From the NCBI GenBank assembly GCA_019115185.1, contig DXDZ01000007.1, forward strand, positions 1-35,204: a DNA stretch of 35,204 nt, given 5' to 3'. The stretch is from Candidatus Agathobaculum merdipullorum (GTDB lineage Bacteria > Bacillota > Clostridia > Oscillospirales > Butyricicoccaceae). The notes under the pieces were generated by a model. The model was not told where the DNA came from, searched no databases, and saw only the letters and a program-made list of their open reading frames with translations. Of this stretch, positions 15,917-20,538 are shown piece after piece. Positions within the stretch are counted from its first letter, which is position 1. Every line of letters begins with the position of its first letter. The position numbers and the translations under genes are program-made.

Positions 15917-16753
15917 TTAGAAGGTAGCAACAACAGCGCCCTTGTAGGTGTCGTCAATGAACTGCTTGACGGTGTCGCTCTGGAGCGCTTTCTTGAGCGC
16001 CTGAATCTTGTCGCTGTTTTCGTCGCCGCTGCGGCAGGCAACCACGTTGACATAGACCTTGGCGTACTCCGGATTCTCGGTGATGAGCGAATCCTCCTTG
16101 GCGTTCAGGTCAGCCTGCAGCGCGTAGTTGCCATTGATAACTGCGAGGTCAACGTCCTCGAGCGAGCGCGGCAGCTGCTCAGCAGCGATTTCCTGAATGT
16201 CGAGGTTCTTCGGGTTCTCGACGATGTCCAGCTTGGTTGCGTCCGAAGTCGGGTCGATGCCGTCCTTGAGCTTAATCAGGCCAGCGTCCTGCAGCAGAAG
16301 CAGCGCGCGGGTTTCGTTCGAGCCATCGTTCGGAACCGCAACGGTCGCGCCGTCTGCCAGCGCATCAAGGGAAGCGGTCTTGCCCGGATAGATGCCGAAC
16401 GGCTCATAGTGCATCTCGATGGCGGACACCAGATCCGCACCGTTTTCCTTGTTGAAGTTGTTCAGATAGGGGATGTGCTGGAAGTAGTTTGCGTCCAGAT
16501 CGCCGTCCACCAGTGCGGTGTTGGGCTGTACATAGTCGGTGAACTCGACGACGTTGAGCGTCCAGCCCTCTTCGGCCAGTACATCCTTGGCGGCGTTCAG
16601 AATTTCAGCGTGCGGTGTGGGCGATGCACCGACCGTGATGGTCTTGTCGTCGGATGCGTTGGCATCGCTCGTCTGTGCGTCGTTGCCGCCGCAGGCTGCC
16701 AGCGCGGACAGGCACAGTGCGCCTGCAAGCAGGGCTGCAATTTTCTTCTTCAT
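15917..16753 (-). CDS. metQ: Methionine ABC transporter substrate-binding lipoprotein (NlpA family)
   Basis: This 278-residue lipoprotein has signal peptide MKKKIAALLAGALCLSALAAC with lipobox LAAC and Cys21. NlpA/MetQ features follow: VGASPTPHAEILNAAKDVLA, DYVQPNTALVDGDLDANYFQ, and the Arg-containing ligand pocket near PNDGSNETRALLLLQDAG. It delivers methionine (possibly also other Met derivatives) to MetNI. AAAAGGAGAG precedes the ATG. It is the last gene of metN-metI-metQ and is followed by a bidirectional terminator. The leader upstream of metN would control all three. Confidence 0.93.
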   Translation of the reverse strand: MKKKIAALLAGALCLSALAACGGNDAQTSDANASDDKTITVGASPTPHAEILNAAKDVLAEEGWTLNVVEFTDYVQPNTALVDGDLDANYFQHIPYLNNFNKENGADLVSAIEMHYEPFGIYPGKTASLDALADGATVAVPNDGSNETRALLLLQDAGLIKLKDGIDPTSDATKLDIVENPKNLDIQEIAAEQLPRSLEDVDLAVINGNYALQADLNAKEDSLITENPEYAKVYVNVVACRSGDENSDKIQALKKALQSDTVKQFIDDTYKGAVVATF

Positions 16754-16812: not shown

Positions 16813-17466
16813 TTAACGGTTGCGCTTGTCCAGATGGCGCGCAAGCCACATGCCGCAGACCTGAAAGATCTGCACGACGATCACGATGATGATAACGGCC
16901 ACCAGCATGATTTCGAAGTTATAGCGGTTGTAGCCGTAGTTGACGGCCACAGTGCCCAGACCGCCGCCGCCGATGAAGCCCGCCATTGCGGAGTAGCCGA
17001 GGATGGTCACGATCGAGATCGCGCCGCCCACCATCAGCGAGGGCTTGGCTTCGGGCACGAGCACTTTCCAGACGATCTGCCAAGGTGTTGCGCCCATGGA
17101 CTGCGCCGCTTCGATCACGCCGAACGGCACTTCCTTGATCGAGGACTCGACCATGCGCGCGACATATGGCGCGGCTGCGACCGTCAGCGGCACAATCATC
17201 GCGGTCGTGCCGATCGCCTTGCCTGCGATCGCGCGTGTCATCGGGGTAATCATGACCGCGAGGATGAGGAACGGGATCGAGCGCAGGATGTTGACAATCA
17301 CGCCGAGCACCGCGTTCAGCACGGGCATCGGGCGGATGCCGCCTTTATCGGTCACGACCAGCAGCAGGCCGAGCGGCAGGCCGATCAGATAGGAAACCAC
17401 GGTCGAAACGATGACCATATATAAGGTTTCCCATAGGCTCTGGGCCCAAAGTTCAGGTGAAAGCAT
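16813..17466 (-). CDS. metI: Methionine ABC transporter permease
   Basis: This 217-residue membrane protein has about five segments and the MetI-type EAA loop (FGVIEAAQSMGATPWQIVWK). The opening (WETLYMVIVSTVVSYLIGLP) and ending are typical. It starts inside the last codons of metN (14-base overlap) with GAGGAGGG placed 8 bases before the ATG, so translation is coupled. It forms the channel of MetNIQ. Confidence 0.94.
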   Translation of the reverse strand: MLSPELWAQSLWETLYMVIVSTVVSYLIGLPLGLLLVVTDKGGIRPMPVLNAVLGVIVNILRSIPFLILAVMITPMTRAIAGKAIGTTAMIVPLTVAAAPYVARMVESSIKEVPFGVIEAAQSMGATPWQIVWKVLVPEAKPSLMVGGAISIVTILGYSAMAGFIGGGGLGTVAVNYGYNRYNFEIMLVAVIIIVIVVQIFQVCGMWLARHLDKRNR

Positions 17467-18478
17467 CGGCGTCGCCCTCCTCTACATGCACATTCTGGGT
17501 TTCGAGGTACGCCAGCGCGCGCTTGGCCGCGCGTTCGTCCTCGGGGAGTTGCAGAATCATCTGGCCGTAGGCACGACCGTCAATGTCCTTGGTGTCTGCA
17601 AACATGATGTTGACCGGCGCTTTGCACTCGAGCACCATGTTGGACACGACCGGCTCAAACGACGAGTTGCCGTCGAACACGATGCGGCAGTAGTGCTTGC
17701 CGGTGGCCAGCTTGTCGCGTTTGCCGTCTGGATAAATCAGCTGCTTTGCCATCGCGGACTGCGGACGGGTGAACACCTGATCGACCGAGCCGACCTCTGC
17801 AATATGGCTGGAATCAATGATCGCTACACGCTGACAGATTTCCTCAATGACCGCCATCTCATGCGTGATGACGATGATCGTGATGCCGAGCGTCTTGTTG
17901 ATTTCCTTTAACAGCGCGAGGATCGAGCGGGTTGTCGTCGGGTCGAGCGCGCTGGTCGCCTCGTCGCACAGCAGGATTTTCGGGTTGGTCGCCAGTGCGC
18001 GGGCGATAGCGACGCGCTGCTGCTGGCCGCCCGAAAGCTGGGACGGGTAGTTGTCCGCGCGGTCGCTCAGGCTGACGATTTCGAGCAGCTCATGTGCGCG
18101 CTTTTCTGCGTCTGCCTTTTTCATACCGGCAATCTCGAGCGGGAAGCAGATATTTTGCAGGGCGGTGCGCTGCTGGAGCAGGTTGAACTGCTGGAAGATC
18201 ATGCCCATCGAGCGGCGCGCCTCAAGCAGCGCCTTTTTGGACAGCGAACCGAGCTCCTGCCCGTCTACTGTGACCATGCCTTCGGTCGGCTTTTCCAGAA
18301 AGTTGATGCAGCGGACAAGCGTACTTTTGCCCGCACCCGACAGGCCGATGATGCCGAAGATTTCTCCACGGCGGATATCGAGATTTACGCCGTCCAGTGC
18401 GGTGACCGTACCGGCCCGACCGCGGAAGGTTTTATTCAGGTTTTGAATTCGTACAATGAAATCCTGTTCCAAGTCCAT
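17453..18478 (-). CDS. metN: Methionine ABC transporter ATP-binding protein
   Basis: The 341-residue ATPase has Walker A GLSGAGKSTL, signature LSGGQQQRVAIARAL and Walker B ILLCDEATSALDP, all within the first 200 residues. A C-terminal NIL domain (about 265-335) in MetN proteins binds methionine and inhibits transport when the cell is full. AAAAGGGGGA precedes the ATG. It is the first gene of the operon and lies directly after a terminator hairpin in its leader, so its transcription depends on read-through of that hairpin. Confidence 0.95.
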   Translation of the reverse strand: MDLEQDFIVRIQNLNKTFRGRAGTVTALDGVNLDIRRGEIFGIIGLSGAGKSTLVRCINFLEKPTEGMVTVDGQELGSLSKKALLEARRSMGMIFQQFNLLQQRTALQNICFPLEIAGMKKADAEKRAHELLEIVSLSDRADNYPSQLSGGQQQRVAIARALATNPKILLCDEATSALDPTTTRSILALLKEINKTLGITIIVITHEMAVIEEICQRVAIIDSSHIAEVGSVDQVFTRPQSAMAKQLIYPDGKRDKLATGKHYCRIVFDGNSSFEPVVSNMVLECKAPVNIMFADTKDIDGRAYGQMILQLPEDERAAKRALAYLETQNVHVEEGDADAFT

Positions 18479-18489
18479 TCCCCCTTTTC

Positions 18490-18524
18490 AAAATAAAAGC
18501 GGAAAGCAAGATATGCTTTCCGCT
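18490..18524 (-). terminator. Attenuator terminator in the metNIQ leader
   Basis: On the minus strand an 11-bp stem (18524-18514 with 18508-18498, loop 5 nt) is followed by TTTATTTT, only about a dozen bases before the metN start codon. An intrinsic terminator in front of the operon's first gene implies conditional read-through. Its 5' arm is also complementary to the leader-peptide coding region. Confidence 0.85.
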
Positions 18525-18615
18525 CGTTTTCCATCTGAACCGTGCCATGCCGCATGAAAAGCGGCCCGCTTACAGCTTGCAGCGTCAGCGCTGCATGGCA
18601 GAAAAACGAGCAAAA
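18518..18615 (-). promoter_or_regulatory. Candidate antiterminator of the metNIQ leader
   Basis: Minus-strand bases 18615-18601, within leader-peptide codons 13-18, pair continuously with 18532-18518: 15 pairs, three of them G-U, with GCTCGTTTT/AAAACGAGC as the core. The helix takes 7 of the 11 bases of the terminator's 5' arm (18524-18518), so the two structures exclude each other. An adjoining perfect 8-bp helix (18600-18593 with 18550-18543) would stack on it. A hairpin of 6 bp at 18594-18579 holds the peptide stop codon in its loop. Confidence 0.7.
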
Positions 18616-18653
18616 CCGCACATCATGCACATGTTCATACGAATAGACAGCAT
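18585..18653 (-). CDS. Met/Cys-rich leader peptide of metNIQ (22 residues)
   Basis: This short frame is too small for normal gene finding, but it has an ideal ribosome site (AAGGAGGA, 7 bases before the ATG) and lies about 50 bases after a good promoter. It begins MLSIRMNMCMMCGFARF and contains Met at positions 1, 6, 8, 10, 11 and 20 and Cys at 9 and 12. Six Met and two Cys in 22 residues, ahead of a methionine-uptake operon, is what a ribosome-mediated attenuator would need. Stalling at codons 8-12 would leave the antiterminator arm free; reaching the stop would cover it. I do not recognise a named family for this peptide. Confidence 0.75.
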   Translation of the reverse strand: MLSIRMNMCMMCGFARFSAMQR

Positions 18654-18706
18654 TGCGGCTTCCTCCTTTTCCTACGGTTTTAATAGAGTTTATTCTCTGT
18701 GGTATT

Positions 18707-18735
18707 AGTGTAGTCTATCGAGGGGGATTTGTCAA
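18707..18735 (-). promoter_or_regulatory. Promoter of the metNIQ leader and operon
   Basis: On the minus strand, a perfect TTGACA (18730-18735) and TACACT (18707-18712) have 17-bp spacing, giving a leader of about 220 nt before metN. Confidence 0.75.
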
Positions 18736-18775: not shown

Positions 18776-19660
18776 TTATTGGGCGGATTTTTGGCCTTTT
18801 CCGCCGCCGTTTCCGTTACCAGCGCCATGACCTTGGCCTGCGCCTTGACCATAGCCTTGTCCGGTGCCATTCCCTTGACCGGTACCTAAGCCGTTCGCCT
18901 GACCGCCGCCCTGTCCGTTGCCTTGGCCCATACCGTTGCCTTGGCCTGCGCCATAGCCATGTCTGCCGGGCACAGACTGCAAATCGCCGTCCAGTGCAGC
19001 GATGCGGTCGCGGATCTCACGCATGGTCAGTCCCTGCACGTCTTCCGGGGTGACGCTGGGGTCGAGCGCCTGCAAAGCGAGAAACGCTTCATATTTGCCG
19101 AAAGACAGCCCGGCTTCATGCGCCTGCTCGATTTCTTCCGTGCTGGCCGCGCGGCAGTAGACATTGTTTGTGCCCGCGGTGCAGGTTTCGGTCTGCGCCA
19201 GAATGGCGTCCGCCTGCCCCTGATTGTCGCCCGCGACCGCAATGGACAGCACCTCATCCTGCGCGAGGTAATCCTCGACTTCAGGGTTTTGCAACAGACA
19301 GTCCAGCGCGTCGGCATAATTGAGAAAGCGCACGTCGAGCGACTCGGCCAGCGCGTCGCCGTCCTTGCCGATGCCGTCAACCGAGATCACCTTGTCAAAC
19401 CGGTTGACCGCCAGTTCGACCGACGGGTTGATGTCGATGCTGATGGCGCAGGTGGGGGAGAAGTAGGCCCAGTAGCCTGTGCCGCCGACCACCACCAGCG
19501 CAAGGCAGGCAAAAGCCGCTGCCATGCGCCGCGCCGCGCGCGGACGGGCTTTCGCTGCACCGTAATCGTGTGTCTGCCGCGCAAGAAACGCGCGGGTGGA
19601 CTGCCGGAGCGCGTCGTCTGCCGTGACTTTGTCCAGCGCGGTTTTCAGTTCGTCACGCAT
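18776..19660 (-). CDS. RsgI-like membrane anti-sigma factor with Gly/Gln-rich tail
   Basis: 294 residues. The cytoplasmic N-terminus (1-45) is followed by one membrane segment (about 46-68, AAAFACLALVVVGGTGYWAY). Next comes the extracellular motif of RsgI-type proteins (AISIDINPSVELAVNRFDKV, then DGIGKDGD). From about residue 225 the tail is low-complexity G-Q-G-N-G repeats. By family analogy the N-terminus would hold the sigma factor encoded just upstream, whose stop region it overlaps by 8 bases. What the tail senses is unknown; similar Gly-rich tails may contact the wall or metal ions. The assignment rests on the motif and on gene order. Confidence 0.8.
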   Translation of the reverse strand: MRDELKTALDKVTADDALRQSTRAFLARQTHDYGAAKARPRAARRMAAAFACLALVVVGGTGYWAYFSPTCAISIDINPSVELAVNRFDKVISVDGIGKDGDALAESLDVRFLNYADALDCLLQNPEVEDYLAQDEVLSIAVAGDNQGQADAILAQTETCTAGTNNVYCRAASTEEIEQAHEAGLSFGKYEAFLALQALDPSVTPEDVQGLTMREIRDRIAALDGDLQSVPGRHGYGAGQGNGMGQGNGQGGGQANGLGTGQGNGTGQGYGQGAGQGHGAGNGNGGGKGQKSAQ

Positions 19661-20135
19661 CGTCGTCCCCTCCCAGCGTTTCTCTCAGCGCCTGTTTGGC
19701 GCGGGTGAGCAGTGTATAAATGGTGTTGACGTTTTTCTTGAGGATTTGGCTGATCTGCGGAGCGGTGTAGCCCTCATAATAATGCAGGTAGACCACATCG
19801 CGGTACTTGGGCGGCAGTGCAAGCACGGCTTCCAGCACGGTGTGGTCCTGCTGTGTCAGTTCGGCAGGCTGGTCGAGCAGGGTATCGAGCGAAACCGTGC
19901 GGCTGCGGAAAAAGCTCTTGAGCAGATCGCGGCAGGCGTTGATCGTCACGCGGATAAACCACGCTTTTTCGTGCTCTTCGCTTTCAAAAACGGTGGTGCT
20001 GAGCACATATTTCAGGAATACGTTCTGAAAAATGTCCTCTGTGTCGGCATGGTTCTTCAAATGGATCATACAGATCCGCCGCACGGTGTCCGCATACCGC
20101 TCGATCGCTCGATTTGCCTCCTGTTCGCTCCGCAT
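19653..20135 (-). CDS. RNA polymerase sigma factor, ECF/sigma-70 family
   Basis: This 160-residue sigma factor has region 2 (ADTEDIFQNVFLKYVLS and KAWFIRVTINACRDLLKSFF) and region 4 (VLALPPKYRDVVYLHYYEGY, then APQISQILKKNVNTIYTLLT), with no regions 1 or 3, as in ECF sigmas. AAGAGG stands before the ATG. It overlaps the anti-sigma gene, so both are made together. It follows the secreted repeat protein by 31 bases, suggesting that the three genes form an autoregulated operon. Confidence 0.92.
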   Translation of the reverse strand: MRSEQEANRAIERYADTVRRICMIHLKNHADTEDIFQNVFLKYVLSTTVFESEEHEKAWFIRVTINACRDLLKSFFRSRTVSLDTLLDQPAELTQQDHTVLEAVLALPPKYRDVVYLHYYEGYTAPQISQILKKNVNTIYTLLTRAKQALRETLGGDDDA

Positions 20136-20166: not shown

Positions 20167-20538
20167 TTATCGGTTGCAGCCCCGTCCCTGGCCGCGGCCG
20201 CAGCCTGTGCCATAGTTGTCGCACACGCCGTCGCCATTGGCATCGACGAAATACTGACCGCGGCCCGTGCCGCAGTTGTCGCAAATGCCGTCGCCGTCAG
20301 CGTCTACAAAGTACTGACCGCGGCCACAGCCCGTGCCGTAGTTATCGCATACACCGTCGCCGTTGGCATCGACGAAGTACTGCCCGCGGCCCGTGCCGTA
20401 GTTGTCGCAGACCCCGTCGCCGTTAGCGTCCACGAAGTTGCGTCCGCGACCATTGCCGTTTCCTGCGGCGAATGCGCCTGTAACTGCCATCGAAAGAACC
20501 AGTGCTGCGCTGATCGTACCCATTACCATCTTTTTCAT
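20167..20538 (-). CDS. Small secreted protein with four calcium-loop-like repeats
   Basis: 123 residues. An export signal (MKKMVMGTISAALVLSMAVT, AxA site near residue 24) is followed by four near-identical units of about 20 residues built on G-R-G-Q-Y-F-V-D-A-N-G-D-G-V-C-D-N-Y-G-T. The D-x-N/D-x-D-G-x-x-D pattern matches the calcium loop of EF-hand, dockerin or thrombospondin type 3 repeats, and each unit has one Cys or more. The third unit differs slightly (DADGDGICDNC). AGGAGG precedes the ATG. The function is unknown; being first in an operon with a sigma and anti-sigma, it may be the effector or the sensed partner of that system. Confidence 0.8.
   Translation of the reverse strand: MKKMVMGTISAALVLSMAVTGAFAAGNGNGRGRNFVDANGDGVCDNYGTGRGQYFVDANGDGVCDNYGTGCGRGQYFVDADGDGICDNCGTGRGQYFVDANGDGVCDNYGTGCGRGQGRGCNR

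Follow-up and report, generated by a model that had tools for sequence, protein, structure and literature searches.

How the methionine importer operon metNIQ of Candidatus Agathobaculum merdipullorum is controlled is the question raised by the DNA directly before metN. Methionine genes of Firmicutes are usually governed by S-box or T-box RNAs, which sense SAM or uncharged tRNA directly and contain no translated leader. In E. coli trp and its relatives, a leader peptide rich in the relevant codons is followed by mutually exclusive 1:2, 2:3 and 3:4 helices, with a terminator before the operon, and control of this style appears to be rarely reported in this bacterial group. The locus was studied in a window of 35,204 nucleotides, the whole stretch of DNA analysed (contig DXDZ01000007.1). 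Judging from the sequence and from folding models, the metNIQ leader would be a trp-type ribosome-mediated transcription attenuator, sensing methionine and perhaps cysteine starvation, to which a probability of roughly 85% is given.

The metNIQ operon and its leader

Three genes on the minus strand form the operon. The ATPase gene metN (17453..18478), whose product carries a NIL domain, had ABC_MetN as best NCBIfam match, below the cut-off, together with Pfam ABC_tran and NIL. The permease gene metI (16813..17466) matched NCBIfam MetI above the cut-off and Pfam BPD_transp_1, and the gene of the substrate-binding lipoprotein, metQ (15917..16753), had MetQ and MetQ/NlpA as best NCBIfam matches, both below their cut-offs, with Pfam Lipoprotein_9. 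By sequence comparison metN probably starts with TTG at 18472 rather than with ATG at 18478: the equivalent of 18472, read by eye, is TTG in 21 and GTG in two of the 23 leaders described below, and the ATG at 18478 is not universal, being ACG in L090 and L093.

Directly upstream of the metNIQ leader, the minus strand also encodes a protein with an RsgI-like anti-sigma domain (18776-19660) beside an ECF-type sigma factor (19653-20135). A 123-aa ORF on the same strand (20167-20538) is built of about four 60-bp repeats (20188-20438) and looks rich in Asp, Asn and Gly by eye; no NCBIfam match was obtained for it up to an E value of 0.001.

All elements of the leader lie on the minus strand between 18735 and 18490, directly before metNIQ. 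The promoter (18707..18735) consists of TTGACA (18735-18730), a 17-nt spacer and TACACT (18712-18707). Segment 1 (18655..18674) is the ribosome-binding-site region of the leader, including the site AAGGAGGA itself (18668-18661), and can pair with codons 12-18 in an RNAalifold consensus helix of 18 pairs. The leader ORF, MLSIRMNMCMMCGFARFSAMQR (18585..18653), has 22 codons and a TGA, with its ATG at 18653 and its stop ending at 18585; Met occupies codons 1, 6, 8, 10, 11 and 20, and Cys codons 9 and 12. Codon counts in the 23 leaders marked codons 6-12 (M N M C M M C, 18618..18638) as the putative sensor. Codons 13-18, UUUUGCUCGUUUUUC (18601..18615), are segment 2, the 5' arm of the predicted antiterminator, and pair with segment 3, GGAAAACGAGCGGAA (18518..18532), the 3' arm, which has 7 bases in common with the terminator. 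Between the two arms are a stop-codon hairpin (18578..18595) and a conserved central hairpin, GCCGC-UUUUCAU-GCGGC (18549..18565), found in the consensus fold and also complementary to codons 9-13. The intrinsic terminator with its T tail (18490..18524) is made of segments 3 and 4, with 11 bp between 18524 and 18498 and the tail TTTATTTT.

The promoter, the AAGGAGGA site, the 22-codon Met/Cys frame and the 11-bp terminator that a first-pass annotation had reported were all recovered at their positions, and so was the stretch of 15 bp over which codons 13-18 (18615-18601) are complementary to 18532-18518, sharing 7 bases with the 5' arm of the terminator, some of its pairs being G-U. The 211-nt leader folded with a z score of -5.55, and none of 200 shuffled sequences was as stable.

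From this anatomy we infer that the leader is translated, that ribosomes stall in it and that it responds to amino acid supply, in the following way. When Met-tRNA, and perhaps Cys-tRNA, runs short, the ribosome on the leader would stall while its A site holds one of codons 6-10. With codons 13-18 left free to pair with the segment that holds the 5' half of the terminator, this half would be captured, and RNA polymerase would continue into metNIQ. With charged tRNAs, the ribosome would move over codons 13-18 and the terminator would form. If the leader is not translated, the ribosome-binding-site region could pair with codons 12-18, leaving the terminator free to form, which makes this helix another candidate for the off state.

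Search for known regulatory RNAs

Nothing in the window reached the gathering score of an Rfam family, S-box (RF00162) and T-box (RF00230) included, and an S-box or T-box at the metNIQ leader was rejected on the lack of a covariance-model match at this score. SAM riboswitches do exist in these bacteria, all 25 genus genomes having a single match at another place. The single match of G001, the sole locus read, precedes metK (L121 1501-2868), which means that the genus has S-box control, but not at metNIQ. The five leader peptides tried against NCBIfam gave no match up to E = 1. Like the S-box and T-box RNAs, the leader would act by transcription attenuation of methionine genes in Firmicutes; the difference is that these RNAs have no translated leader and that neither matches here, though T-boxes precede metN in relatives.

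Conservation of the leader within the genus

Leader DNA was found in 23 of the 87 genomes of the family, all of them within the genus, for which 25 genomes were available, and a MetN orthologue occurs in exactly those 23. The assembly of G019 is broken at this place, with the whole leader on one contig and metN with the last 88 bases of the leader on another. The alignment holds 23 sequences, 22 of them distinct, as L109 and L110 are identical. Almost no change is seen in the terminator and the central hairpin, nor upstream of them in codons 15-19, the ATGTGCATGATGTGCGG core and the ribosome-binding site; codons 2-7 and the loops are variable. TTGACA and the 17-nt spacing are present in 23/23, and the second hexamer is TACACT in 19, TAAACT in three and TATACT in one.

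From the start codon to codon 19 the only gaps measure 3 nt, in one sequence, or 6 nt, in two, and thus keep the frame; outside this part there are gaps of 1, 2, 4 and other lengths. With the sensor positions numbered backwards from codon 15, Met stands at codon 6 in 16 leaders, at codon 8 in 22 and at codons 10 and 11 in 21 each, and Cys at codons 9 and 12 in 21 of the 23. The retention of Met at codon 6 in just 16/23 is a point against the proposed attenuator. Since the Cys codons of the core are as regular as the Met codons in 21/23 leaders, the signal may not be methionine alone, and a leader with both predicts, in a directly testable way, that both amino acids are sensed. The first 22 residues of L109 and L110 are free of Cys, and their core has only two Met after the start. 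By alignment column codon 5 is Arg in 22/23, spelled CGA, CGG or CGT, and the stop is codon 23 in 19/23.

The peptide and its complementarity might have turned out to be unconserved among relatives, which would have spoken against the first-pass reading; the core, the antiterminator and the terminator were kept in the 23 leaders.

Pairing and covariation of the helices

Conservation of the two exclusive helices was of one kind: complementarity was kept, and two-sided covariation, which the first-pass annotation had proposed to look for, was absent in both the antiterminator and the terminator. In the antiterminator, which joins codons 13-18 to 18532-18518, 97.6% of cells were paired against 55-65% in slid controls; the shuffle control was not beaten, and no pair was changed on both sides in the 23 leaders, because the coding arm hardly varies. 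In its 9-bp core each departure replaces A by G opposite U; the one exception is an A.A mismatch shared by L109/L110. For the terminator 99.2% of cells were paired and nine of eleven pairs were invariant; its arms hardly vary, and no two-sided covariation was seen among the 23 leaders. The ribosome-binding-site region and codons 12-18 were paired in 96.5% of cells (slid controls 50-60%), with two-sided changes not beyond those of shuffles (64/500). The stop-codon hairpin had fewer cells paired (89.6%), but all of its seven pairs showed two-sided changes, in 22 cells, which was reached in 0/500 shuffles.

Codons 9-13 and the central hairpin (alignment A2 columns 50-62 with 125-139, about 18629-18616 with 18565-18553 of the window) were complementary in 96.8% of cells. 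Two of the pairs were doubly changed, as in 1/500 shuffles, and the covariation score was matched by 68/500. Going by these sequences, this pairing together with the antiterminator would make a pseudoknot.

The match between codons 9-13 and the central hairpin, with its two double changes, the invariant stretches and the conserved loop of that hairpin would also suit a metabolite-binding riboswitch or a tRNA-binding leader of a family outside Rfam, in which the ORF is incidental. We consider this quite unlikely, as the frame-preserving gaps and the Met/Cys core speak against an incidental ORF, no Rfam match was found at the leader, and the unlike RNAs of other genera (see below) have in common an ORF rich in Met and Cys, a hairpin resembling a terminator and the gene downstream.

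The lack of two-sided covariation in the antiterminator, the key helix, fits a further explanation, namely that a short ORF and a terminator came together by chance or as a by-product, with no regulation of metNIQ. This is judged highly improbable against the conservation in 23/23 metN-bearing genus genomes, the placement of the codons and the clustering of such ORFs before metN. The clustering was measured with a simple ORF and Shine-Dalgarno pattern in 81 sources, namely the window and 80 MetN loci (676 kb), where 34 of the 2191 Shine-Dalgarno-led ORFs of 12-40 codons had at least seven Met and Cys beyond the start; 30 of these 34 sit 175-529 nt upstream of metN, the window's ORF being at the leader itself. 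Because the pool was selected by MetN, it is the position of the hits that counts and not their raw rate, and by this concentration upstream of metN a chance ORF was rejected.

Ribosome footprint and folding models

The claim that a ribosome stalled at the Met cluster would leave the antiterminator free was modelled in two ways, and it held in one of them. In a footprint scan of the 23 leaders, RNA under and before the ribosome was removed, and the rest was folded before the 3' arm of the terminator exists. With codons 4-10 in the A site the mean probability of the antiterminator was 0.97-0.98, above 0.5 in 23/23; at codon 11 it was 0.69 (20/23 above 0.5), at codon 12 it was 0.16 (0/23), and from codon 14 on it was 0. 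The Met codons thus fall, within this model, inside the A-site range that frees the antiterminator. The occupied share of the terminator arm was 0.94 at codon 6, 0.93 at codon 8, 0.85 at codon 9, 0.57 at codon 10, 0.16 at codon 11, 0.42 at codon 12 and 0.35 at codon 13; as it falls at codons 10-11 and rises again at 12-13, this measure is not a clean switch. By these modelled values the most helpful stalls would be those at Met 6, Met 8 and Cys 9, with Met 10 contributing in part, and stalls at Met 11 and Cys 12 would help little.

In a cruder model, where RNA may pair across the ribosome and is again folded before the 3' arm of the terminator is made, the effect was unclean. The antiterminator probability was 0.34 with no ribosome and 0.35 with one at codon 8; with the ribosome at codon 10 it rose to 0.96, at codon 12 it fell to 0.015, and a ribosome at the stop gave 0.42. 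Of the ribosome-free RNAs, 9/23 favoured the antiterminator already. Equilibrium folds of the full-length leader kept the terminator in 23/23 sequences in each of five modelled states, so any switch must be kinetic, that is, co-transcriptional.

The first-pass annotation had further assumed that a ribosome at the stop codon masks the antiterminator arm. Since the modelled footprint begins near codon 18, such a ribosome would cover only the end of the arm, and masking of the whole arm from the stop codon was rejected on this modelled geometry.

For the proposed attenuator, the analysis shows the anatomy, the conservation and the complementarities and, within a model, the footprint geometry. A Shine-Dalgarno-led short ORF with Met codons, a terminator between this ORF and the operon, and a conserved antiterminator that excludes the terminator were all found, as belongs to a trp-type leader. 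The comparative evidence, that is, the conserved core, complementarity and terminator together with the modelled placement of the Met codons, argues for the trp-type reading that the first-pass annotation had suggested.

Relation to known attenuation systems

The leader resembles the trp-type attenuators in its leader peptide with relevant codons, its exclusive helices and its intrinsic terminator ahead of the operon. Unlike E. coli trp, it has Met and Cys codons, its segment 1 is the ribosome-binding-site region, its segment 2 lies inside the leader ORF, and it is found in Clostridia before a transporter.

Among the open-access matches listed, the sole direct precedent is metL of Streptomyces lividans TK24, described in the matched passages of PMC8079986 as a short Met/Cys ORF before metNIQ, with a peptide ending in CMCRRMCAF, and listed there as an attenuator. 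It is like the ORF of the window in being short, bearing Met and Cys and preceding metNIQ, a comparison made by the printed peptide only; it differs in that, as these passages present it, it is leaderless, belongs to another phylum, has no typical terminator and comes without comparative evidence.

Cysteine codons have been brought forward in other systems. The ORF uORFC-8-2 before cysS in Rhodobacterales was proposed as a Cys-codon attenuator (PMC8632094, passages matched), and the polycysteine ORFs of mycobacteria (Canestrari 2020, as cited in the matched part of PMC13236596) were described as translation attenuation. As in our leader, stalling of the ribosome at cysteine codons is proposed there to control the downstream gene, but these excerpts concern cysteine only, and other genes and phyla. 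For bacilli, His leader peptides were proposed before hisS paralogues in the matched text of PMC2965389; this is, as here, a proposed leader-peptide attenuation in Firmicutes, replacing a T-box, though for histidine and for aminoacyl-tRNA synthetase genes and their paralogues. According to the passages matched in PMC1262725, methionine operons of Actinobacteria have no conserved RNA structures upstream, and no aminoacyl-tRNA synthetase gene of Firmicutes is under classical attenuation. PMC6925170 was rejected as a clostridial precedent, the terms being used in an unrelated sense in its matched passages. None of the matches listed in the open-access literature dealt with Met/Cys leaders upstream of clostridial metN genes, the search leaving most subscription journals outside.

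Met/Cys-rich leaders before metN in other genomes

Short Met-rich frames upstream of metN, for which the first-pass annotation had proposed a search among relatives, were found in the genus and beyond it. Eighteen of the 80 MetN loci are Agathobaculum-type and carry the leader; all of them repeat, letter for letter, leaders already in the genus set of 23, so they add no evidence. Further leaders with unlike Met/Cys-rich ORFs were found in Intestinibacillus (L026) and in 20 Lachnospiraceae-type loci, the records of which are titled Lachnospiraceae, Herbinix, Mobilitalea, Clostridiales or Bacillota, with Anaerolineaceae for L066. T-boxes stand before metN in seven loci (L034, L040, L042, L044, L048, L061, L065) and SAM riboswitches in two (L038, L082). 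The rest of the 80 loci, some of which are cut short upstream, gave no sign of a leader, a T-box or a SAM riboswitch. The Rfam scan covered the window, 70 of the 80 loci (the ten omitted being Agathobaculum) and 20 of the 76 further upstream regions treated below.

Alignment A3 holds 19 of the 20 Lachnospiraceae-type leaders and L166; L050, one of 21 candidates, was missed by the pattern and is absent. In A3 a segment near GATAG pairs better with the terminator region of its own sequence than with that of other species (mean 15.0 vs 13.2; 2/2000 permutations). The start region pairs with a downstream GATGTTTTCAT at 22.2 vs 10.6 for shuffled letters, this pairing being weak in 5/20 (L029, L031, L037, L054, L080). 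Profile A1, built from 17 Lachnospiraceae-type peptides, was searched against 20 whole genomes of this or related type: 19 gave a match, each at the known metN leader, and there was one additional weak match (E 0.069). Against 391 genomes of the class it gave one weak match, and in the family of G476 it matched 3/299 genomes, namely G476 itself, G749 (strong) and G623 (weak), which indicates that the Lachnospiraceae-type leader is rare.

In a MetN tree of 75 of the 80 loci (L009, L056, L058, L074 and L075 omitted), the Agathobaculum and Lachnospiraceae-type groups formed separate well-supported clades; Intestinibacillus falls within the former, and L087, which has no detected leader, within the latter.

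A further 76 regions upstream of metN were drawn from the family and order. For 58 metN places, four that are truncated or lie at the end of a contig (G976, G1001, G902, G936) were omitted and seven were already covered. Scanned with the simple ORF and Shine-Dalgarno pattern, the 76 regions gave 16 ORFs with at least six Met and Cys, 14 of which were accepted, and eight T-box motifs, with no region having both; in the 56 regions outside the Rfam scan T-boxes were sought by motif only, and SAM riboswitches were not part of the scan. L210 and L211 were dropped by judgement as apparent false positives. The reverse strand, used as a null for the 76 regions, gave 2/178 ORFs. One accepted leader, L168, is the contig of L026 again, two, L205 and L232, are from other families of the order, and another two stand ahead of second metN copies in Agathobaculum genomes (G002, G011). 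All 14 have a terminator-like hairpin after the ORF, in a hairpin search made without a null. In only 5/14 was the complementarity of the leader to the terminator arm equalled by no more than 5/100 letter shuffles, the other nine being no better than shuffles. The peptides of the 23 genus, 20 Lachnospiraceae-type and 14 further leaders have on average 4.1, 6.3 and 7.4 Met after the start and 2.0, 4.2 and 2.9 Cys.

The Cys pairs and alternating Met-Cys motifs present in many of these leaders would also be expected of an arrest peptide or a metal- or thiol-sensing peptide, in which CMMC binds a ligand such as copper, in the tunnel or in the cytosol, and so causes the stall. This is held to be unlikely. 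L109 and L110 lack the core Cys yet retain the predicted RNA switch, and the three groups of leaders have Met/Cys content in common and no evident peptide consensus. The stall window that frees the antiterminator in the footprint model holds Met codons. The genes downstream are those of a methionine-type importer, which is not independent evidence where loci were chosen by MetN; the whole-genome profile search of the Lachnospiraceae type, by contrast, led to the same place before metN.

A system of the proposed kind, ribosome-mediated attenuation, is already known, and it is the combination of Met and Cys codons, Clostridia, an importer operon and several unlike leader families that is new to the sources searched. 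If the attenuator is real, this mechanism would be a working alternative to S-box and T-box RNAs for methionine control in Firmicutes, and a leader kept wherever the genus keeps the importer, with unlike leaders in other clostridial genera, would be a natural series on the swapping of RNA sensors. A broader proposal, put forward tentatively at somewhat less than even odds, is that these leaders make up a recurrent and largely undescribed class of sulfur-amino-acid attenuators in Clostridia, in which unlike leaders respond to the charging of both Met-tRNA and Cys-tRNA, originated or were rebuilt on several occasions before metN and swap with T-boxes; the version of the window adds the conserved pairing of codons 9-13 with the central hairpin, which could put the antiterminator in a pseudoknot.

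The second MetN copies of two Agathobaculum genomes (L186, L187) thus have their own, different Met-rich leaders. On the Agathobaculum contig of L009 a malK-I RNA match (RF03069, 4796-4973, minus strand) was observed about 3.7 kb downstream of metN.
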